Shown here in pieces: positions 43,603 through 56,481 of a stretch of DNA of 64,000 bases; within the stretch, counting starts at the first letter, position 1, and each line of letters begins with the position of its first letter. The stretch lies in assembly GCA_025517465.1 (NCBI GenBank), contig JAOPKE010000004.1:200165-264164 (forward strand), written 5' to 3'. The translations under genes were made by a program, and so were the position numbers. The notes beneath the pieces were generated by a model. That model saw nothing but the letters and a program-made list of their open reading frames with translations, did no database searches and was not told the origin of the DNA. Origin of the DNA: Halobacteria archaeon HArc-gm2. Lineage in GTDB: Archaea > Halobacteriota > Halobacteria > Halobacteriales > Haloarculaceae.

Positions 43603-43998
43603 TACTCGCTTCACTTCCCTCGGCCACTGAGGAAGCGTGGCAGCCGGCGGAGGGAGGAGCGCGATGCGCGGCGTCGTGGTCCGGGCGGTCTACTCTGGTC
43701 TTCGAAAGCCACCGTTATCCGGGGAGTGCGTCGGCTTAACTCGGTCGTGCCAGGTCCTGTCAGTCCGACGGGGAGACGGCGGAGGCGAACGTCCCTCCGC
43801 CTCGCGACGGATGTGACAGAATCCAGTTGTGTTTTTCGAATCGGTACAGGACGGTTCTGACGCGCTCGTCAGTACTCCTGTAAGCGCACGTTGTCGGTCG
43901 GATCGTCGCGAGTTACTCGCCCGGCTTCGACCGGTAATATCCCTTACTCTCGTTTCTCTATTTATAACAAAGGTGACTGGTCGGGTACCGTCGAAGGA
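43603..43998. other. Noncoding region upstream of the surface protein
   Basis: No gene is visible. It contains a hairpin-forming stretch (ggcggaggcgaacgtccctccgcct, 43782-43806) and the promoter of the following gene. Confidence 0.5.
43961..43967 (+). promoter_or_regulatory. TATA box of the FG-GAP surface protein
   Basis: The sequence tttataa is centred about 27 bases before 43991, so transcription would start a few bases before the ATG at 43999. This makes the longer frame starting at 43891 unlikely to be translated. Confidence 0.6.
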
Positions 43999-46506
43999 AT
44001 GCTTCCAAAGCGAATCTCCACGACAGCGGTGTCGAACGGGACAGTCGTCGCGATCACACTCCTCGTGGTCGCGAGCACGATGGTGATTACCGCCGGCGCC
44101 GTCACGACCGGCGGCCAGTCACAGGTCGCACAGCAAGCCGAACCGGACGGGCTCTCCGGCGAGACGAACCTCTCGGACGCGGACACGGTGTTCCACGGTG
44201 AAGACGTGAACGATACCGCGGGGCGATCGGTAGCCAGCGCCGGTGACGTCAACGGCGACGGCGTCGACGACCTGATCATCGGCGCGCCGCACAACGACAC
44301 CGGCGGCGAGGACGCCGGCGCGGCCTACGTCGTTTACGGGCCCGTCGACACCGACGAGGTGGAGCTGGAAGACGCCGACGTCAAACTCGTCGGCGCCTCG
44401 GCCGACGACATGGCCGGCTGGTCCGTCTCGCACGCGGGCGACGTGAACGACGACGGCTACGACGACGTCGTCGTCGGTGCGCCGAACCACGACTCGACCG
44501 GGTCGAACACCGGCGCGGCCTACGTCGTCTACGGTGGCGACTCGCTCCCCGCGAATATGAGCCTCGCCGACGCGAACGCCACGTTGCAGGGCACCGACGC
44601 GGACGCCCGCGCGGGCTGGTCGGTGTCGAACGCGACCGACGCAGACGGTGACGACGCGGTCCTGGTCGGAGCGCCCTACGCGAACGACGGGGCGGGCGCC
44701 GCGTACCTGGTCCCCGGTGCGGACGCCGACGGGACCGCCACGCTCGACGACGCGGCCGCGGCGACGATGGAAGGCGAGTCGGCCGGCCACCTGGCGGGCT
44801 GGTCCGTCTCCGGTGCCGGTGACGTCGACGACGACGGCACGGCCGACGTCGTCGTGGGCGCGATGAACTGGTCCGGCGAGACGAACGAGACGACGAGTGC
44901 CGGCGGCGCCTACGTCGTCTCCACCGACGTCTCGGGGACGGTCGACCTCGGTTCGGCCGACCTGATCCTCACCGGCGCCTCGGACCGCGACCGCGCCGGG
45001 TGGTCGGTGTCCAGCGCCGGTGACGTGAACGACGACGGCGTCGCGGACGTCGTCGTCGGCGCGCCGTACCACGACGCCGACGCCGTCGACGCGACCGGCG
45101 CGGCCTACGTCGTCTACGGCGGCACCGACGCCGAAGGAGTGCGCTCCCTGGCAGACGCCGACCGAACGCTGACGGGCGACCGTGAGGGCGACCTGGCGGG
45201 CTGGTCCGTCTCCGACGCCGGCCCGGCCGACGTCACCTGTGACGGAATCGACGACCTGCTCGTCGGCGCGCCCGGCCACGACGAGAACGGGAACGACTCT
45301 GGTGCCGCCTACGTCGTCGCCGGAGCCCAGTCACCTCCGGCGTTCCAGTCACTCGGTGAGGCATCGTCCACGTTCTACGGCGAGGCCGCCGATGACCGCG
45401 CCGGTCACGCCGTCTCCGGCGCCGGCAACGTGACCGACGACGGCGGACCGGCTGTCCTCGTCGGCGCGCCGGACAACGACAACGACGGAGAGACCGACGC
45501 CGGCGCCGCGTACCTCCTGGACAGCGACTGCGGCGACGTGACGACAGAGAACGAGACGGAGAAGCCGACCGACAACGAGACAGAGAAGCCGACTGACACG
45601 GATACGGAGACGAAAACGGACACGGAGACCGAGACTGATACCGACACCGAGACGAGGACCGAGAAGCCGACTGACGCGCCGTTGACCGAGACGGAGACGA
45701 AGACTGACACGGACACGCCAGACACTGACACCCCGGACACGGACACGCCAGATACGGATACGCCGGATACTGATACGCCAGACACCGACACGCCGGACAC
45801 CGATACGCCGGACACTGACACGCCGGATACCGACACTCCGGACACGGATACTCCGGATACCGACACTCCGGACACCGATACGCCGGATACCGACACCCCA
45901 GACACCGACACGCCGGATACGGATACGCCGGACACTGACACCCCGGACACTGACACGCCGGATACTGATACGCCAGACACCGACACGCCGGATACTGATA
46001 CGCCAGACACCGACACGCCGGACACCGAAACCGAGACGGAAGACCAGCGTGCGGCGATCAGCTTCGTCCTGCTCTGTACCACCGACGAGGGAGCGCCCAC
46101 AGTAGGTGGAGCCGGATCCGGTGACTGTCCAGAGGGCGAACCGTTCGTCAGGTGGGAGTGGACCGGTAGTTCGTTCACCGTCGAAGACGGCGACGCGGGA
46201 ACGACGATGGAACCGTCCCTGTTCAAGGAGCCGAACGAGCCGGTCGAGGCCCAGTGGACGTCGACGACCTACGACGTCACCGGCGCCGTCGTCGGGGCGG
46301 GCGGAGAGACCTGCACGTTCCCCGGCGACCCCGGAGACCTCCCGGACACCGGGGACGTCGAGTCCTGTGAGGGAACGGGCGCCGCGTCGATGAGCAACCC
46401 GGCCGGTAGTGGAATAGTCCCCGGATCGGCACCCGGCGGACTGATCGCCGGGACGTTCGCGTTCGCCGGCGCGTCGGTCCTGGCCATCAGGCGACGGAAC
46501 TACTGA
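43999..46506 (+). CDS. FG-GAP/integrin-alpha-like surface protein with DTDTP stalk
   Basis: The 835-residue protein has a Sec-type signal and hydrophobic helix near the N terminus (about 12-36), then seven FG-GAP-type repeats ('AGWSVSSAGDVNDDGVADVVVGAPYHD', with Asp-rich Ca2+ loops) forming a beta-propeller at about 60-510. A Glu/Thr/Asp-rich section leads into 21 perfect DTDTP repeats (45706-46020), then a small domain with two Cys pairs (LLCTTDEGAP..SGDCPEG and ETCTFPGD..VESCEG) and a C-terminal helix followed by RRRNY. This is an exported cell-surface protein anchored at its C terminus, probably for adhesion or calcium-linked binding. No PGF-CTERM motif is seen. Confidence 0.92.
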   Translation: MLPKRISTTAVSNGTVVAITLLVVASTMVITAGAVTTGGQSQVAQQAEPDGLSGETNLSDADTVFHGEDVNDTAGRSVASAGDVNGDGVDDLIIGAPHNDTGGEDAGAAYVVYGPVDTDEVELEDADVKLVGASADDMAGWSVSHAGDVNDDGYDDVVVGAPNHDSTGSNTGAAYVVYGGDSLPANMSLADANATLQGTDADARAGWSVSNATDADGDDAVLVGAPYANDGAGAAYLVPGADADGTATLDDAAAATMEGESAGHLAGWSVSGAGDVDDDGTADVVVGAMNWSGETNETTSAGGAYVVSTDVSGTVDLGSADLILTGASDRDRAGWSVSSAGDVNDDGVADVVVGAPYHDADAVDATGAAYVVYGGTDAEGVRSLADADRTLTGDREGDLAGWSVSDAGPADVTCDGIDDLLVGAPGHDENGNDSGAAYVVAGAQSPPAFQSLGEASSTFYGEAADDRAGHAVSGAGNVTDDGGPAVLVGAPDNDNDGETDAGAAYLLDSDCGDVTTENETEKPTDNETEKPTDTDTETKTDTETETDTDTETRTEKPTDAPLTETETKTDTDTPDTDTPDTDTPDTDTPDTDTPDTDTPDTDTPDTDTPDTDTPDTDTPDTDTPDTDTPDTDTPDTDTPDTDTPDTDTPDTDTPDTDTPDTDTPDTDTPDTDTPDTETETEDQRAAISFVLLCTTDEGAPTVGGAGSGDCPEGEPFVRWEWTGSSFTVEDGDAGTTMEPSLFKEPNEPVEAQWTSTTYDVTGAVVGAGGETCTFPGDPGDLPDTGDVESCEGTGAASMSNPAGSGIVPGSAPGGLIAGTFAFAGASVLAIRRRNY
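45706..46020 (+). repeat. 21 tandem 15-base repeats encoding DTDTP
   Basis: Twenty-one in-frame units of 15 bases encode DTDTP without a single amino-acid change, while the codons vary freely (gac/gat, acg/acc/act, ccg/cca/ccc). A 30-base pair of units (gatactgatacgcca plus gacaccgacacgccg) occurs three times, at 45766-45795, 45961-45990 and 45991-46020, the latter two in direct tandem. It forms an extended, highly acidic and Thr-rich stalk suitable for O-glycosylation. Confidence 0.95.
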
Positions 46507-49192: not shown

Positions 49193-50395
49193 TCACTCGC
49201 CGGCCAGCGAGGTCCCGCAGTTGGGACAGAACCGGACGTCCGCCTCCATCGAGAAGGACTCGCCACAGGCGTCACAGCGAGCACCGCCGCCAGTCGAGGA
49301 CGTCCCTTCGTCGTCGGTCCCCGGGACTGCGTTCGTCTCGCCGGCCGTAGTGGACCCGAACCCGCCGTCACCGTCGTCGGCGGGCGGCGTGAATACGCGC
49401 GTGTTACTGACGTCGTCGAGGTCCTCCCCGTCGTCGTCGGATTCCACCGAATCCTCCGAATCCGTCCCGTCCCCGTCCGATTCGGTCGGCCCCCGGTCGG
49501 CAGTCGAGGTGTCGGTGTCCGTGCCAGTCGACCCGGCTGACGAATCCGACGTATCGGCGGGGGTCCCGACCGGCGTCGTCGAGTCCAGGAACGGCGGGTA
49601 TCGCTGGCCAGTCCGCATCGAAGACCGGTCGACGTCGGGTTCGACGAGCCGAACGCCGAGCGAGACGACCGTCTGGATCAGTACGTACGCCAGGGCCAGG
49701 GCGAGCGGGAACGCCGCCACCGCGGCGACGCCCGACACGACGAACCCCTCCACAGAAACGGACCCGAGTACCCACGCCGGGAGCCCCGCCGCGCGGAGCG
49801 CCCGTTCCGCGAGTTGGCCCCGTCCAGTCGCCGTTCCGACTGCCGCCAGCGCGCTCCCGAACGCCACGACAGTCGAGACGACGGCGAGGAACTGCACCAC
49901 GAGCGGGTGCGAAAAGGAGTACACCCGGTACGTGAAGGCGAGCGTCCGGACCAGGGCGAACAGGCCGACGGGGAGCAGTACCAGGGAGAAGTACCACGGG
50001 AACCCGCCGAGGGCCAGTCCGACCACGACTGCCACGACGACGAGGAGCGTCGGCGGCGCGAGTAACGTGGCCGGATGTTCGAAGCGGTAGTACTGTTCGA
50101 CGTTGCCGCGGAGGTTCAGCGTCCGTCGCCGTATACGGACCGTGACGGCGACGGCCGGGACGGCGAGCCAGAGGACGGCGAAGAGGCCGACCGCGAGCGG
50201 CGACGGGCTCTCCCCGGCCGCGAGCCCGAGTGAAACCCCGAGTACGTCGGCAACCTGAACGGCGAGCGCACCCGTCCCGCCGATCCAGACGACGGCCGCG
50301 ACGACGCCGACCAGCAGGTCGCGGAGGAACCACTGCTCGTCACCAGTGACGAGGCGAAACGAATCGGCGAGTTCGCGCCGTCGGCGTCCTGACAT
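49193..50395 (-). CDS. Multi-pass membrane protein with C-terminal zinc ribbon
   Basis: The 400-residue protein has an N-terminal basic stretch (MSGRRRRELADSF), five or six membrane helices over about 20-260, a long acidic linker (SDGDGTDSEDSVESDDDGED; about 300-330) and a C-terminal zinc ribbon, CDACGESFSMEADVRFCPNCG. Thr332 in 'SNTRVFTPP' lies in the linker. It is the last gene of the kinase/phosphatase cluster (104 bases after the FHA protein) and shares its ribbon style with the FHA protein, suggesting the two work together at the membrane. Function unknown. Confidence 0.85.
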   Translation of the reverse strand: MSGRRRRELADSFRLVTGDEQWFLRDLLVGVVAAVVWIGGTGALAVQVADVLGVSLGLAAGESPSPLAVGLFAVLWLAVPAVAVTVRIRRRTLNLRGNVEQYYRFEHPATLLAPPTLLVVVAVVVGLALGGFPWYFSLVLLPVGLFALVRTLAFTYRVYSFSHPLVVQFLAVVSTVVAFGSALAAVGTATGRGQLAERALRAAGLPAWVLGSVSVEGFVVSGVAAVAAFPLALALAYVLIQTVVSLGVRLVEPDVDRSSMRTGQRYPPFLDSTTPVGTPADTSDSSAGSTGTDTDTSTADRGPTESDGDGTDSEDSVESDDDGEDLDDVSNTRVFTPPADDGDGGFGSTTAGETNAVPGTDDEGTSSTGGGARCDACGESFSMEADVRFCPNCGTSLAGE

Positions 50396-50499
50396 TGCTT
50401 GGAGGGTGTTTTTCGCCGGGTGGGAAAGCTGTTACGCGACAGCTTCGACTCGCCGCATTATACGCTGCGATCGGAACGGGGAAACTACCGGCAGCGTGG

Positions 50500-51573
50500 T
50501 CAGGCCGCTTCGACGTCCAGGGTGACGACGTCGGAGAGTTCGAGTTCGTCGCCTGGCGCGACCGCCTCCCGGTCGCCTTTCGTCAGCGACGTGCCGTTCA
50601 CGCGGGTCGGGTTCTGGCCGAGCGCGACCGCGTAGAACTGGCCGTCCTCGCGGACGAACCGGACGTGTTCGCGGTGGACGCGAACCGCCTCGTCCTCCGG
50701 ACGGCCGGCCTCGGTCAGTAACGACCGTATCTCCCGGCCGACGATGTCGCCATCACCGGCGACGACGGTCTTGCCGTGGGCGGTCAGCGCGAGCGCACTG
50801 GGCGCGCTACCGCCGGACGATGCGTCGCCGGCTCCCACAGCGGCACCCGAGCGGGCGGCGTCGAGGTCGGCCCCGCAGCCCGCACAGAAACTGTTGTCCG
50901 GACCGACGTCGGTTCCGCAGTCGGGACACTCCGTCAGGACGCTCGCGCCACCGCGGTGGGCGTCGAGGTCCTCGCCGCACTGCGCACAGAAGCTGTCGTC
51001 CGCGTCGACGTCGCCGCCACAGGACGGACAGGCGGCGAGTTCGTCGCCGGCGCCGTCGTCGGCCGGGAAACTGCTCACGTCCGCGCCGCAGTCGGGGCAG
51101 AAGTTGACGTCGGCCGCGAGCTCGGTGCCACAGCCCGGGCAGTCGAACGACTCCGCGTCGGCCGCGCCGTCGCCCGCGTCTGCCGCCGACGCGTCGTCTG
51201 TTTCGGTTTCCTCGACGTCTGCCTCGGCGTCCGCGTCAGCACCGCCCCACTCGTCAGCGGATTCGTCGCCTGCCGCCGACTCGTCCGACTCCGTGTTCTC
51301 GTCGGAGTCGGCCTCCTCGTCGGCCGATTCGTCGTCGGACTCCTCCATCCACGACGGTGGGTCCGGTGACTCCGAATCGTCGGCGACGTCGGCGAGCGGG
51401 TCGCCATCGTCGCCCGAATCGTCCGCACCCACCGATTGCTCGTCCGACGTGGCGTCGGCTTCGTACTGCCACTCGCCACAGTCGGAGTTTGTACACCAGC
51501 CCCCAGCGGCCGCCGGGTCGAACGCCTCGCCGCAGAGCGGGCATTCGACCGACGCCGTGTCACTCTCGGACAT
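50500..51573 (-). CDS. FHA-domain protein with four zinc ribbons
   Basis: The 357-residue protein opens with a zinc ribbon (CPLCGEAF...CTNSDCGEW, about 11-36), then a very acidic linker of about 110 residues, three further ribbons (CPGCGTEL..CPDCGADV, CPSCGGDV..CAQCGEDL, CPDCGTDV..CAGCGADL; about 150-255) and a C-terminal FHA domain (about 270-357: 'GREIRSLL', 'VHREHVRFV', 'NPTRVNGTSL'). FHA domains bind phosphothreonine peptides. Four CxxC pairs in tandem suggest a protein or nucleic-acid scaffold. A possible TATA (gggtatagtgta) lies about 20-25 bases before the ATG, so it may have its own promoter in addition to read-through. Confidence 0.9.
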   Translation of the reverse strand: MSESDTASVECPLCGEAFDPAAAGGWCTNSDCGEWQYEADATSDEQSVGADDSGDDGDPLADVADDSESPDPPSWMEESDDESADEEADSDENTESDESAAGDESADEWGGADADAEADVEETETDDASAADAGDGAADAESFDCPGCGTELAADVNFCPDCGADVSSFPADDGAGDELAACPSCGGDVDADDSFCAQCGEDLDAHRGGASVLTECPDCGTDVGPDNSFCAGCGADLDAARSGAAVGAGDASSGGSAPSALALTAHGKTVVAGDGDIVGREIRSLLTEAGRPEDEAVRVHREHVRFVREDGQFYAVALGQNPTRVNGTSLTKGDREAVAPGDELELSDVVTLDVEAA

Positions 51574-51706
51574 GCCTGGGAATACACTATACCCAGGTGG
51601 TGAAAATAGTTTCCGTCAGCGAACCGGAAAAATACACTCCAGTGGGCCCGAGACGGGGGCGCTCACGCTTCGGGGTCAGCCGCTCCTCGGGAAGCTTCGG
51701 AGACAG

Positions 51707-52801
51707 TCACTCCTCGGGAACGATCACGGTCTCCCGGTCCTCGACCGGGCCGTCCGGGTCGACGGCCCTGACCGGCATCCCTTCGTCATCGCCGGGGGTC
51801 GACGGGAGTTCGGGGTCGCGGGCCAGGACGACCGACAGGTTGTCCTTTCCGCCGCGTTCGTTCGACAGGTCGATCAGGCCCGACGCGGCGTCGTCCAGCG
51901 AGTCCGACCCGAGAACCAGGTCGCGGATCTCCTCGTCCGTGACGACGGCCTCGCGCACGACCTCGGCGGCCTCGTCGCTCCGGCCTGCCTCGACGTATCG
52001 CTCGTACAGCGCGGGCGCGTCGGTCTGGGCGTCGATCAGCCCGTCGCTCGTCACGAGCAGGACGTCCTCGGCGAACAGCGTGACGGAGTTGGTCTCGACG
52101 GGGACCGACGCCGTCTCCGGGTCGCCGTCGCCCGCGCCGCCGAGTGCGCGCGTTATCTCGTTGCCCCTGGGGTGGACGTGGGCCGCGACGTCGTCGATTT
52201 CGCCCCGGTCGTGTAGCTCCTGGACGACGCCGTGGTCCTTCGTGAGCAGTTCGATGGACTGGCGCGCGCCGTTGACGAGGTAGGCGCGGCTGTCACCGAC
52301 CCAGCCGTAGTGGACTTCGCCGTCGACGACGACGCCCGCGACGGCCGTCGTGTAGGCCTGGGTCCCGCTCTCGGCGGCGTACCGGACGACTTCACGGTGG
52401 GCGGCGACGATGGCATCCGCGACGGCCGTCTGGAGGTCAGTGGCGGTCGGCCGGTCGGGCAGCAGCGACTCGTCGATATCGACAGCGAAGGCGTCGGGGT
52501 TCCGCCTGCTCGCCTCGGCGACGACGGGTGCCAGTTCCTCACAGATGACCGTCGTCGCCAGGTAGGAGGCGACGTCACCGGCGTCGTGGCCGCCCGCGCC
52601 GTCGGCGAGGGCGAACACCGCGGCGCTCCGATTCGCTGGCGGGTCCTCGTCGTCTCGCTCGCCGGTTCGATCTTCGCCGACCCCGTCCGTGGTCACACCC
52701 GACCGGTGGCCCTGTTCGAAGACGGACAGCGCGACGCTGTCCTCGTTGATACCCCCGCCGCGCTTGCGGTCCCCGACGTCGTAGTTGGTAGCGTAGTCCA
52801 T
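51707..52801 (-). CDS. PP2C family serine/threonine phosphatase
   Basis: The 364-residue protein has the PP2C motifs in order: 'RKRGGGINEDSVAL' (about 12-25), 'ALADGAGGHDAGDVASYL', 'GWVGDSRAYLV', 'LLVTSDGLIDAQ' and 'GGKDNLSVVLA', with the Asp residues for two metal ions. It should remove phosphates from Ser/Thr and reverse the neighbouring kinase. It carries a C-terminal tail with DRETVIVPEE (Thr358). It follows the kinase after three bases, so they are cotranslated. Confidence 0.95.
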   Translation of the reverse strand: MDYATNYDVGDRKRGGGINEDSVALSVFEQGHRSGVTTDGVGEDRTGERDDEDPPANRSAAVFALADGAGGHDAGDVASYLATTVICEELAPVVAEASRRNPDAFAVDIDESLLPDRPTATDLQTAVADAIVAAHREVVRYAAESGTQAYTTAVAGVVVDGEVHYGWVGDSRAYLVNGARQSIELLTKDHGVVQELHDRGEIDDVAAHVHPRGNEITRALGGAGDGDPETASVPVETNSVTLFAEDVLLVTSDGLIDAQTDAPALYERYVEAGRSDEAAEVVREAVVTDEEIRDLVLGSDSLDDAASGLIDLSNERGGKDNLSVVLARDPELPSTPGDDEGMPVRAVDPDGPVEDRETVIVPEE

Positions 52802-52804
52802 GGT

Positions 52805-54037
52805 TCAGTGCTGGTGGAACTCGAAGGTGACCCCGTAGCTCGGGTGGACGAGCGCGACGAGGTCGCCGTCCTGCAGGCGGAAGGTGGTCGGCGGGACGTT
52901 GCCGTGGCGGTCCGTCGGGTCCTCGCCCTGCTCGCGCAGGCGCTCGCGGCCGGCCTCGCCGAGGACGCGCTGCCAGCCGTCGCCGGTCTGGACGTACGTC
53001 CCGTTGAGGCTCCGGTCGCGCAGCACCCAGTTGCCGTGGTCGTCGACGTCGAACTGGACCTGGACGGTCGAGATGTACTCGTCGTCGTCCTGGATGGCGA
53101 CGGCAGGCGAGGGGCCCACCGCGTCCTCGCGACCGATGGTGTCCCCGACGTGGATGGTGTAGCGGTCCTCCTGCTGGAGGTAGCGGACCGAGGCCTGCGG
53201 CGGCGGCGTCGGGTCCTTCTCGCGGAGGACGTGCTCCATCGCCGTCGCGTTGTGATAGCGGTCCTCGTAGCTCGTCGCCGTCGCCCGCTCGACGATCTCG
53301 GCGAGGTAGGGCGGACAGTCGACGCCGAAGTCCCGCGGGTCGACGCCGTCCATCTTCGGAACCGTCCCCTTCAGGAGAAAGAGCAGGATCTTCCCGATGG
53401 AGTAGACGTCGGACCAGGGGCCCTGGCGGGCCTCCGAGCGACTCGCGTCGGCGACTTCTCGGGGTTTGTAGGGGCCCAGGATCGTAGTCCCTGAGTCCTC
53501 GGCCTCCCCGGAGGCGTCGAAGCCCGTTGCCGTGTTGAAGTCGATGAGCACCGGCGTGACGCGGCCGTTCCGCTCAGTAAGCATGACGTTGTCCGGCTTC
53601 AGGTCGCGATAGACGATCTCGTTCTCGTGCAGGAACGACATCGCGCCACAGAGGCCGACGCCCACCTCGCGGACTTCTGCGGGGTCGAGCGGCCCGGTCT
53701 TGTCGATAGCGTCGTCCAGTTCGTAGCCGTCGACGAACTCCACGACGAGGACCGGACCGTCGTCGTCCTCGTGGCGGTCGAGGAGGTTCATCACGTTCGG
53801 GTGGCCGCCCGCGTCGCGGATGCTCTCCAGCGCGGTGGCCTCCTTCAGGAAGTACTCCTCGACGACGGCCGCGTCGTTGCTCGACCCGGCGGTGTTGGGA
53901 ACCTTCACTGCGACCGTGTCACCGGTCTGCGTGTCGACGGCCTCGTACGCGATGGCGAAGCCGCCGCTGCCGGCCTCGTTCTCGATGCGGTACCGGCCGG
54001 CGACGAGGTCGCCGCTGGCGAGCGCGGTGGCGCTCAT
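52805..54037 (-). CDS. Serine/threonine protein kinase with C-terminal FHA domain
   Basis: The 410-residue protein has a bilobal kinase domain (about 10-275): Gly loop GSGGFAIAY, AVKVP lysine, 'YRDLKPDNVML' in place of HRD, 'LIDFNTATG' in place of DFG, 'GPYKPREV' where APE is expected and 'WSDVYSIGKILLF'. The catalytic Asp and metal-binding Asp are present, so it is probably active. An FHA-like domain follows at about 290-410 ('GREDAVG', 'DRSLNGTYV'), and no membrane helix is present. Kinase plus FHA in one chain is a bacterial-style arrangement. It stands 34 bases after the vWA gene and 3 bases before the phosphatase. Confidence 0.94.
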   Translation of the reverse strand: MSATALASGDLVAGRYRIENEAGSGGFAIAYEAVDTQTGDTVAVKVPNTAGSSNDAAVVEEYFLKEATALESIRDAGGHPNVMNLLDRHEDDDGPVLVVEFVDGYELDDAIDKTGPLDPAEVREVGVGLCGAMSFLHENEIVYRDLKPDNVMLTERNGRVTPVLIDFNTATGFDASGEAEDSGTTILGPYKPREVADASRSEARQGPWSDVYSIGKILLFLLKGTVPKMDGVDPRDFGVDCPPYLAEIVERATATSYEDRYHNATAMEHVLREKDPTPPPQASVRYLQQEDRYTIHVGDTIGREDAVGPSPAVAIQDDDEYISTVQVQFDVDDHGNWVLRDRSLNGTYVQTGDGWQRVLGEAGRERLREQGEDPTDRHGNVPPTTFRLQDGDLVALVHPSYGVTFEFHQH

Positions 54038-54071
54038 CGGCGGATACCTCCCGTATCGTCCCGTCGACCGG

Positions 54072-55253
54072 TCATCCGAGCCGGTCGCCGTCGTCGACGA
54101 TCTGGGTGGCCTGGCTCTGCTCGGCGCGGCCGCCCTCCTTGACGATCTGGGTCTGGCGGTCGGCCTCCTGGACGGCCTCGGCGTCCTCGCCGTGGACGAC
54201 GGTCATCTTCTCGACCTGGGTCTCGGCGGCCTCGACGTTGCCCTTGCCGAGTTCCGTCCGGATGACGGTCTGCTTGTGGTCGATGGAGACCGACTCGTCG
54301 TGCTCGGCGAGCAACTCCTGGTCGTCGGTGTACTCGACCGTGACGTCGTCGCTCGCGGTGTCGCCGCGCGCGGAGAGGGTCACGTCGGCGAGGGTCACTT
54401 CTTCGAGTTCACGACGCGCGGGCGCGTGAATCTTCAGGACGACGCGCTGGTGTTCGCGCTCGGTCAGGTCCGGGAGCTTCACCACGGCGGCGTTGTTCTC
54501 CCACTCGACGTCGACCTCCTGGGCCTGCGGGAGCGCGCGGTACACCTCGCTCACCTCGACGCCGGGGGCCACGTCGAGTTCGACCTGTGCGTCCGGCGCG
54601 ACGACGGAGGCCGCCTGCTCGACGGCGTCGCCGAAGAACTCCTCGATGTCGCCCGGCGCTTCGAGGTGGGTCCAGGTGCCGCGGGCGGTCGTTCCGAGCG
54701 TCCGGATGGTGTCCTCGTTGTAGTCCTCGCCGATGCCGGCGGACTGGATGCGGACGCCCGAGTTGTCGATTTCGCGGGCGAGTTCCTCGAAGTCGTCGGG
54801 CTCGTGTTCGTTGTCCTTGCCGTCCGAGAGCAGCAGGAGGCGCTTGACGGCGTCTGGGCCGGCGCGAGAGGACGCGAGTTCCTCGCGGGCCGACGCCAGC
54901 CCACCGAACATGTCGGTGCCACCGCCTGCAGTCAGGTCCTCGACGGCGTCCATCGCCTCGTCACGCTCCAGTCGGCCCCAGCGCGTCGTGGGGATGTGGA
55001 CCGTCGCGTCGGTATCGAAGCCGACGAGGCTGACGTAGTCGTCGTCGTCGAGCAGTCCGAACACCCACGCGGCCCCGTCACGGGCCTGCTGGATCTTCGC
55101 GCCGCCCATCGATCCGCTGGTGTCGATGCACAGCGCGACGTGTCGGCGCACGCTCTGGTCCTGTTCGCCCGGTTCTACGTCGATTTCTGCCGTGATTTTC
55201 GCACCGTCGGAGGGAAGGTATGGGCGGTTGACGTCGGTCGAAATTGTCGCCAT
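54072..55253 (-). CDS. vWA-domain protein, TerY/YfbK-like
   Basis: The 393-residue protein has a von Willebrand A domain at about 38-215 with an intact metal (MIDAS) site: 'CIDTSGSMGGAK' (DxSxS), Thr in 'AGGGTDMFGGLAS' and Asp in 'LLSDGKDNEH'. A beta-rich domain follows (about 220-330) and then a helical, Gln/Glu-rich tail with two TQIV motifs (Thr368 and Thr383) 15 residues apart. vWA proteins of this type bind metal and partner proteins. The ATG is nearly at the transcript start set by the TATA box at 55281-55290. It is the first gene of the vWA-kinase-phosphatase operon. Confidence 0.94.
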   Translation of the reverse strand: MATISTDVNRPYLPSDGAKITAEIDVEPGEQDQSVRRHVALCIDTSGSMGGAKIQQARDGAAWVFGLLDDDDYVSLVGFDTDATVHIPTTRWGRLERDEAMDAVEDLTAGGGTDMFGGLASAREELASSRAGPDAVKRLLLLSDGKDNEHEPDDFEELAREIDNSGVRIQSAGIGEDYNEDTIRTLGTTARGTWTHLEAPGDIEEFFGDAVEQAASVVAPDAQVELDVAPGVEVSEVYRALPQAQEVDVEWENNAAVVKLPDLTEREHQRVVLKIHAPARRELEEVTLADVTLSARGDTASDDVTVEYTDDQELLAEHDESVSIDHKQTVIRTELGKGNVEAAETQVEKMTVVHGEDAEAVQEADRQTQIVKEGGRAEQSQATQIVDDGDRLG

Positions 55254-55280
55254 GTCTGTGACTCTGTGGCCAACCGTATG

Positions 55281-55290
55281 AATATATTGT
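55281..55290 (-). promoter_or_regulatory. TATA box of the vWA-kinase-phosphatase operon
   Basis: On the minus strand acaatatatt is a strong TATA element about 27 bases before 55258, leaving a leader of only about five bases before the vWA ATG. It separates the vWA-kinase-PP2C unit from the two PH-domain genes upstream. Confidence 0.65.
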
Positions 55291-55339
55291 GCCGCTTTCG
55301 GGCCACGATTTCCAGCTGGCGGCCGGACCCCATACCGGT

Positions 55340-55924
55340 TCAGTCAGCCGTGAGGACGATCCTGAGCCGTCGAACCTCGTCAAGCACCGCTCGCCACTGC
55401 TCGACCGTTCCGGGAATATGGTCCTCGCCGCCGGCCGCCCCCGCTCGGTCCGCGACGAGGCGGTGGACGTCGTCCGGGTCGTCGAGTGCGCGGAGCCGGA
55501 GTTCGGCCCCCTCGCTCCCGGCGGTGTCCACCGTCACGGTCCCGTGGTCGAACATCGCCCCGAAGACGCCCTGTGAGTAGGCGCTGTTCTGGACCTTGTC
55601 GAGACCGAGTTCGGTGACCGTGACCCAGACGGCACCGGTCCGGTGGTACAGCGCCGCCTCCGTCAGGAGGTAGTCGGTGTGGGCCCGCCAGAGATAGGCG
55701 GAACCGGCCGGCACGGCTAATCCCAACACGGCGACCGCGAGGAACGCGGTGAGGAGGAGGGGTCCGATGGCACCGGTCTGCCAGAGGAACCCACCGACGC
55801 CGAGGATCGTCACCGCGACCAGTGCGCCGACGACGACGCCCCAGTGCACGACGCGAGCGCGCGGTTTTCCCTGCCAGACTGCGGTCTCGTCGGCCGACGC
55901 CGGGGCCCAGTCGGGGAGACTCAT
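55340..55924 (-). CDS. PH-domain membrane protein 2 (bPH2-like)
   Basis: The 194-residue protein has two membrane helices (about 28-48 and 55-76) followed by a bacterial PH-type domain (about 80-165): 'HTDYLLTEAALYHRTGAVWVTVTELGLDKVQNSAYSQG', cited in part, 'GTVTVDTAGSEGAELRL' and 'DPDDVHRLV'. It matches the DUF304/bPH2 (YdbT-like) family. It overlaps the preceding PH gene by four bases and shares its layout, so they probably form a heteromer. The C-terminal helix is amphipathic. Confidence 0.9.
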   Translation of the reverse strand: MSLPDWAPASADETAVWQGKPRARVVHWGVVVGALVAVTILGVGGFLWQTGAIGPLLLTAFLAVAVLGLAVPAGSAYLWRAHTDYLLTEAALYHRTGAVWVTVTELGLDKVQNSAYSQGVFGAMFDHGTVTVDTAGSEGAELRLRALDDPDDVHRLVADRAGAAGGEDHIPGTVEQWRAVLDEVRRLRIVLTAD

Positions 55925-56481
55925 CTGTCGGCGCGGCCGCTCGTCTCTCGCGGGCCGTCCGCGCCGCTGGTCTCGACCGACTGGCGGATCGCCCGGAGCT
56001 CGACCAGGATATCGCCGAGGACGTCCGCCTTCCCGTCCGACTCCTCCTCGCTACGGGCGCCCTGGGCGCGCTTGACGAGCCGGGAGAGACGCTTCTGGAC
56101 GTCCTGGGGGTCCTCGACGGCCCGGAGCTTCATCTCGACGCCCGACCCCCCGGCCGTGCTGATGTCGACGTCGCCGTAGCCGAAGTAGCGGGCGACCGGC
56201 CCCGCGGAGAAGGCGGTGTTCTGGATCTTCTCGTACTCGATTTCGGTGACCGAGCGGCTGAGGATGCCGGTCTTCTTGTAGACTCCCTTGCTCGTGATGA
56301 CGTAGTCGGTGTGTTTGACGATCAGGTACGAGGGGACGATGATCAACAGCCCGAGGCCAAGCAGGAGGATCAGCGGCACCCCGACGACGTAGGTGCCTAT
56401 CATCGACTTCTGGGATATCTTTCCCTCCCAGAGTATCTCCTCGTCGTCGTCCAGCGTCAGCCAGTCGTACTTCCCACTCAT
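55921..56481 (-). CDS. PH-domain membrane protein 1 (bPH2-like)
   Basis: The 186-residue protein has one or two membrane helices near 30-52 ('YVVGVPLILLLGLGLLIIVPSYLIV') and the bPH2 domain 'HTDYVITSKGVYKKTGILSRSVTEIEYEKIQNTAFSAG' in part, with 'GDVDISTAGGSGVEMKL' and 'DPQDVQKRLSRLV'. The DUF304 family includes membrane-embedded PH-like domains of unknown ligand. The ATG at 56481 is chosen because MSGKYDWLTLDDDEEILWEG opens the domain. It is cotranslated with the next gene and adjacent to the kinase cluster, of which it may be part. Confidence 0.9.
   Translation of the reverse strand: MSGKYDWLTLDDDEEILWEGKISQKSMIGTYVVGVPLILLLGLGLLIIVPSYLIVKHTDYVITSKGVYKKTGILSRSVTEIEYEKIQNTAFSAGPVARYFGYGDVDISTAGGSGVEMKLRAVEDPQDVQKRLSRLVKRAQGARSEEESDGKADVLGDILVELRAIRQSVETSGADGPRETSGRADR

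Follow-up and report, generated by a model that had tools for sequence, protein, structure and literature searches.

This analysis concerns a block of genes on the minus strand of a 64,000-nucleotide stretch of contig JAOPKE010000004.1 (positions 200,165 to 264,164) from Halobacteria archaeon HArc-gm2, hereafter the window. Seven consecutive open reading frames (ORFs) fill window positions 49193-56481 (Table 1), each where a preliminary description of the sequence had placed it. They encode two PH-type membrane proteins, a vWA protein, a serine/threonine kinase with an FHA domain, a PP2C phosphatase, a protein with four zinc ribbons and a C-terminal FHA domain, and a multi-pass membrane protein ending in a zinc ribbon. 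Pfam agreed with the domain types first assigned to the PH pair and to the vWA, kinase-FHA, PP2C and zinc-ribbon proteins; it matched several zinc-ribbon models in the 357-residue protein and gave a sub-threshold zinc-ribbon match in the 400-residue membrane protein. The vWA and kinase genes lie 34 bases apart and the kinase and PP2C genes 3 bases apart, spacings that had been reported correctly. The TATA box proposed ahead of this three-gene unit was also located: TATATTCATA, 24-33 bases 5' of the vWA ATG and conserved across the genus.

Table 1. Features of the gene block, in positions of the window.
Feature	Position	Strand	Basis or remark
vWA scaffold protein, ArnB-like, 393 aa	54072..55253	-	Pfam VWA; intact MIDAS; predicted fold
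Ser/Thr kinase with C-terminal FHA domain, 410 aa	52805..54037	-	Pfam Pkinase and FHA
PP2C phosphatase, 364 aa	51707..52801	-	Pfam PP2C_2
Zinc-ribbon FHA protein (four zinc ribbons, C-terminal FHA), 357 aa, ArnA-like layout	50500..51573	-	
Divergent FHA domain (modelled) of the zinc-ribbon FHA protein	50500..50829	-	R280 and N321 kept; HREH; NPT
Membrane protein, multi-pass, 400 aa, with a disordered linker before the C-terminal zinc ribbon	49193..50395	-	
Candidate vWA tail tag 1, TQIV (T368)	54141..54152	-	Conserved in orthologs
Candidate vWA tail tag 2, TQIV (T383), in stretch of pLDDT <50	54096..54107	-	Conserved in orthologs
Kinase activation-loop TTIL (T184), matching the tag pattern	53477..53488	-	Conserved in orthologs
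Candidate PP2C C-terminal tag, TVIV (T358)	51719..51730	-	Conserved in orthologs
Candidate membrane-protein linker tag, TRVF (of TRVFTP)	49391..49402	-	Conserved in orthologs
TATA box TATATTCATA ahead of the vWA, kinase and PP2C genes	55277..55286	-	Position kept in genus relatives
bPH_2 membrane protein, neighbour outside the conserved core	55340..55924	-	Pfam
bPH_2 membrane protein, neighbour outside the conserved core	55921..56481	-	Pfam

Relatives of the source genome (4.25 Mb in 18 contigs) were sampled from the family, from the class and from named records. The vWA, kinase-FHA and PP2C genes occur in the same order on one strand at all 25 other family loci, with median gaps of 25 and 2 bases. 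At 20 of these loci this triad is followed by the zinc-ribbon FHA gene, and the membrane zinc-ribbon gene is present at 17. In other families the triad is also accompanied by a zinc-ribbon FHA gene, placed there before the vWA gene. Among named relatives, close copies were found in Haloarcula, Halosimplex and Halomicroarcula and distant ones in Halobiforma and Halovivax, and 46 of the 292 genomes sampled class-wide had a vWA relative (E < 1e-20). The conserved block comprises five genes: vWA, kinase-FHA, PP2C, zinc-ribbon FHA and membrane zinc-ribbon. The PH proteins were considered as core parts and rejected, because the pair adjoins the cluster at only one of the 25 other family loci, that of the closest relative of the window genome; a second PH pair lies elsewhere in the source genome and has counterparts across the genus. 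The membrane-linked version of a signalling cluster that was first proposed thus loses its PH proteins and keeps the zinc-ribbon membrane protein, with a conserved motif in its linker (below). In one relative, Haloarcula rara (locus L048), the PP2C and membrane zinc-ribbon genes appear frame-disrupted.

Gene order in relatives and trees of kinase and vWA protein had been suggested as checks on the cluster. The order is conserved, as described, and the trees are congruent: vWA and kinase distance matrices are correlated at r = 0.935, a value not reached in any of 999 permutations, and the two trees agree in their main groups. The kinase keeps its catalytic residues (K45, E66, D145, K147, N150 and D166; the HRD motif reads YRD and the DFG motif DFN). 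The FHA domain of the kinase is canonical, keeping R303, S323 and N345-G-T. Together, the intact catalytic and kinase-FHA residues, the conserved order and the congruent trees support well the proposal of a phosphothreonine signalling cluster. Both kinase and PP2C match the general Stk1 and Stp1 models, below the cut-offs of those models, as they would if the two were an ordinary pair of the PknB/PP2C type whose unrelated neighbours stay together by chance. Joint conservation across families, congruent trees and a threonine motif common to several of the proteins make that explanation very improbable. A defence system was also considered and rejected; PADLOC returned only generic kinase matches.

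Some relatives elaborate on the kinase and phosphatase. The Natrialbaceae-type phosphatase has its own FHA domain, located after a tag-like [QR]ET-x-I-[ED] motif, and a second kinase-FHA gene lies downstream of the PP2C-FHA gene in the Natrialbaceae-type clusters L074-L078 and L080. In the kinase ortholog at L072:5403-6740 the activation segment is interrupted by a zinc ribbon (CPNCG...CPGCN), and the kinases of L082 and L083 have similar insertions.

The second putative reader, the zinc-ribbon protein, is more divergent. Pfam gave no FHA match in the 357-residue window copy, though it finds the domain in 7 of 10 aligned members. A profile of the protein matches the FHA domains of Rad53 and GarA (E 2.5e-4 to 1e-3). 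The last 109 residues were modelled by AlphaFold at a predicted local distance difference test score (pLDDT) of 91.7; the top structural matches of the model are all solved FHA domains (Foldseek E 2e-5), and structure alignment gave Z 12.0 and a root-mean-square deviation (rmsd) of 1.9 over 87 residues. According to the model, then, the C-terminal part has the FHA beta-sandwich fold, in agreement with the earlier naming of this protein as an FHA protein. The zinc-ribbon proteins of two relatives, L073 and L079, have a canonical FHA pocket.

The vWA protein is built of a vWA domain, a beta-sandwich, C-terminal helices and a disordered tail. Its metal ion-dependent adhesion site (MIDAS) residues D44, S46, S48, T113 and D144 are intact and invariant among orthologs. 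The best sequence match in the PDB is 8S05 chain A (E 3.5e-10), from the ArnAB complex of Sulfolobus acidocaldarius (PMC12852372). The predicted structure (pLDDT 85.5; last 16 residues <50) matches the same chain at a Foldseek E of 1.2e-24, with Z 25.0 and rmsd 4.7 over 304 residues; the alignment reaches model residue 340 and leaves the last helices unaligned. Further matches to 4fx5 and 5a8j cover the vWA domain, the beta-sandwich and the first helices. The 25 families listed at E<=1 for 20 vWA members do not include ArnB_C (IPR040929), a model whose presence in the library is unconfirmed. ArnB-like architectures have already been remarked in Halorubrum (PMC12852372), and haloarchaea were thus known to have the vWA fold. 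Distant vWA relatives (27-34% identity) at L084-L090 stand without kinase-PP2C neighbours.

Alignment of orthologs brought out short conserved motifs in otherwise variable tails. They share a pattern, T-x-[I/V]-hydrophobic, which we call the tag. Two T-x-[ILV]-V motifs occur in the last 40 residues of the vWA protein in 26 of 26 family orthologs, and [DEQA]T-x-[ILVM] occurs in the last 16 residues of PP2C, again in 26 of 26, against 0.01 and 3.6 expected, respectively, from shuffles that ignore shared ancestry. The vWA-type pattern was found in 2 of 403 control ORFs and the PP2C-type pattern in 16 of 403. The linker that precedes the zinc ribbon of the membrane protein contains T[RK][VI][FYV] in 18 of 18 orthologs, as compared to a mean of 0.05 and a maximum of 2 among shuffled linkers; the linkers around this tag differ in both sequence and length (57 to 265 residues). 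TTI[LV] stands in the kinase activation loop in all 26 family orthologs. A genome-wide DNA search for clients using TRV[FY][TS]P returned four matches, one of them the membrane protein itself; the others included one TRVFWP in a metallo-hydrolase-like ORF, and the rest fell in doubtful frames. Such a setting, a disordered tail whose threonine precedes hydrophobic residues as far as position +3, is typical of FHA ligands. Judged by their sequence and placement, the tags are candidate phosphosites that may be read by the FHA domains of the cluster.

Related motifs occur in more diverged clusters. Natrialbaceae-type vWA tails carry VTRIE and TTVV[YF]D. The source genome itself holds a second cluster (L033; G000:C14:116000-132000) that encodes zinc-ribbon-FHA, vWA, kinase-FHA and PP2C-FHA proteins; its vWA and kinase are 69% and 72% identical to those of L074, versus 42% and 47% to those of the window. 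Being closest to the Natrialbaceae type, it was possibly gained by transfer. Its membrane zinc-ribbon neighbour carries TRIYTP, and TRIYTP or TRIFTD is found in the membrane zinc-ribbon proteins of this cluster and of a relative. Beside another diverged vWA-kinase-PP2C cluster, in genome G082, a J-domain membrane protein with cysteine-rich repeats (L057:9372-11435) has about six T-x-[IV]-x tags (7 pattern matches versus 1.0 expected).

Linked vWA, kinase and PP2C genes are the mark of the bacterial TerY-P triad, to which the cluster was first compared. The comparison holds for the linkage itself, and for actinobacterial neighbourhoods as well, where a kinase, a PP2C and a stand-alone vWA protein form a set with a zinc ribbon on the kinase (PMC7159879). 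It does not extend to closer kinship. The absence of TerC and TerD, first noted in the window, holds for the whole source genome, and both models match in control genomes; the TerY_C metal-binding domain has no match in the source genome either, but that model matched no control genome. The haloarchaeal cluster also differs in its FHA readers, its common threonine tags and a vWA protein whose fold and sequence point to ArnB. That the cluster is a haloarchaeal form of the triad, serving in metal or chemical stress, is on this evidence rather improbable. Since TerD and TerC are missing from the genome and the vWA protein shares with ArnB an additional beta-sandwich and helical region, ArnA/ArnB is the closest known system, nearer than TerY-P.

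The likeness to the ArnA/ArnB/ArnC/PP2A archaellum module of S. acidocaldarius lies in the domain layout and fold of the vWA protein (8S05, 5a8j) and in a partner that combines zinc finger and FHA domain, with four ribbons in haloarchaea instead of one. In Sulfolobus, the C terminus of the vWA protein is the target of both a Hanks-type kinase and a phosphatase (PMC6509490, PMC12852372, PMC7472852). Unlike the Sulfolobus module, the haloarchaeal genes form one block, the phosphatase is a PP2C and not PP2A, the kinase has an FHA domain of its own, a membrane zinc-ribbon partner is present, and phosphosites are predicted in short tags common to several proteins. The cluster resembles ArnA/ArnB in its proposed working and shares the architecture of ArnB, yet we do not assign it to that module, because phosphatase type, kinase FHA, number of ribbons, membrane partner and tag differ and an association with the archaellum appears by genome but not by genus. 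Archaellins were present in 40 of 40 good-quality cluster-bearing genomes of the family versus 38 of 56 others (Fisher 2e-5), a difference that shared ancestry can explain; counted by genus, they were present in 7 of 7 versus 12 of 15 (p 0.52).

Since the genes for kinase, FHA readers and phosphatase are neighbours, their products are most simply understood as a writer-reader-eraser set that has its own members as clients. The core is probably a phosphothreonine switch of the ArnA/ArnB type that assembles itself by way of the tags, its kinase, phosphatase and membrane partner all being encoded within the block. The kinase would autophosphorylate at its activation-loop TTIL and then mark the tag threonines, two in the vWA tail, one at the PP2C C terminus and one in the membrane-protein linker. 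Tails so marked would be bound by two FHA domains, that of the kinase and that of the zinc-ribbon protein. Its two tags could make the vWA protein the hub on which reader, kinase and phosphatase come together at the membrane protein, their presumed anchor; PP2C, recruited by its own tag, would erase the marks and dissolve the complex. By analogy with ArnA/ArnB, the switch may govern gene expression or a surface structure.

A comparable arrangement is the GarA/OdhI switch of actinobacteria, in which a threonine lies in a disordered segment adjoining an FHA domain; in GarA it is bound by the FHA domain of the same protein (PMC5448819). The Natrialbaceae-type PP2C likewise joins tag and FHA domain in one chain. 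In the window, by contrast, the PP2C tag and FHA belong to separate proteins, and tags are borne by signalling components, not by a metabolic inhibitor.

Several observations weigh against a tag-assembled switch, besides the neglect of shared ancestry in the shuffles. The phosphothreonine pocket of the zinc-ribbon FHA, in canonical form G-R, S-x-x-H and N-G, retains its arginine and asparagine, with Ser changed to His and NGT to NPT, so that phosphothreonine binding by this domain is uncertain. The PP2C tag has a non-hydrophobic residue (G, E or Q) after [IV] in some orthologs. The zinc-ribbon FHA gene was not found beside the triad at 5 of the 25 other family loci, nor the membrane gene at 8. 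In Sulfolobus, the ArnB phosphosites have an ETT setting, not that of the tag, and the zinc finger alone keeps the unphosphorylated ArnAB complex together (PMC12852372). That last result, like the altered pocket and the fact that hydrophobic positions define the tags as much as threonine does, would fit tails that serve as phosphorylation-independent docking peptides (for instance as strands on the kinase, a zinc ribbon or the vWA MIDAS) or as a degradation signal, within a kinase-phosphatase unit not assembled by FHA domains. We consider this unlikely, since the threonine is retained in every family ortholog at all four places, beside a kinase with a canonical FHA domain, and in another family an FHA domain follows the tag of the phosphatase.

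The switch we favour may amount to a compact phosphothreonine code: a single tag, present in the activation loop of the kinase and in scaffold, phosphatase and membrane protein alike, would build and dissolve the complex through FHA domains, the phosphatase would be recruited by the mark it erases, and relatives would extend the code, as at L057. This stronger version seems to us evenly balanced between true and false. As far as we could find, neither the conserved cluster nor the tag common to its proteins has been described before; the open-access literature, incompletely covered, yielded no description of the haloarchaeal cluster.

Elsewhere in the window, a plus-strand gene (43891-46506) encodes a large surface protein that has FG-GAP repeats, a long run of (DTPDT)n and, at its C terminus, an end resembling a membrane anchor.

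The best-studied archaeal Ser/Thr phospho-module is that of Sulfolobus, in which the ArnB phosphosites are promiscuous and mutation of single sites has little effect. The haloarchaeal cluster, as in Haloarcula and Halosimplex, keeps putative writer, readers, eraser and membrane partner together and offers few, precisely conserved candidate phosphosites, such that its logic could be tested by mutation of single threonines. If the proposed switch is real, ArnA/ArnB-type switches would occur widely among archaea rather than being peculiar to the motility of the Sulfolobales.

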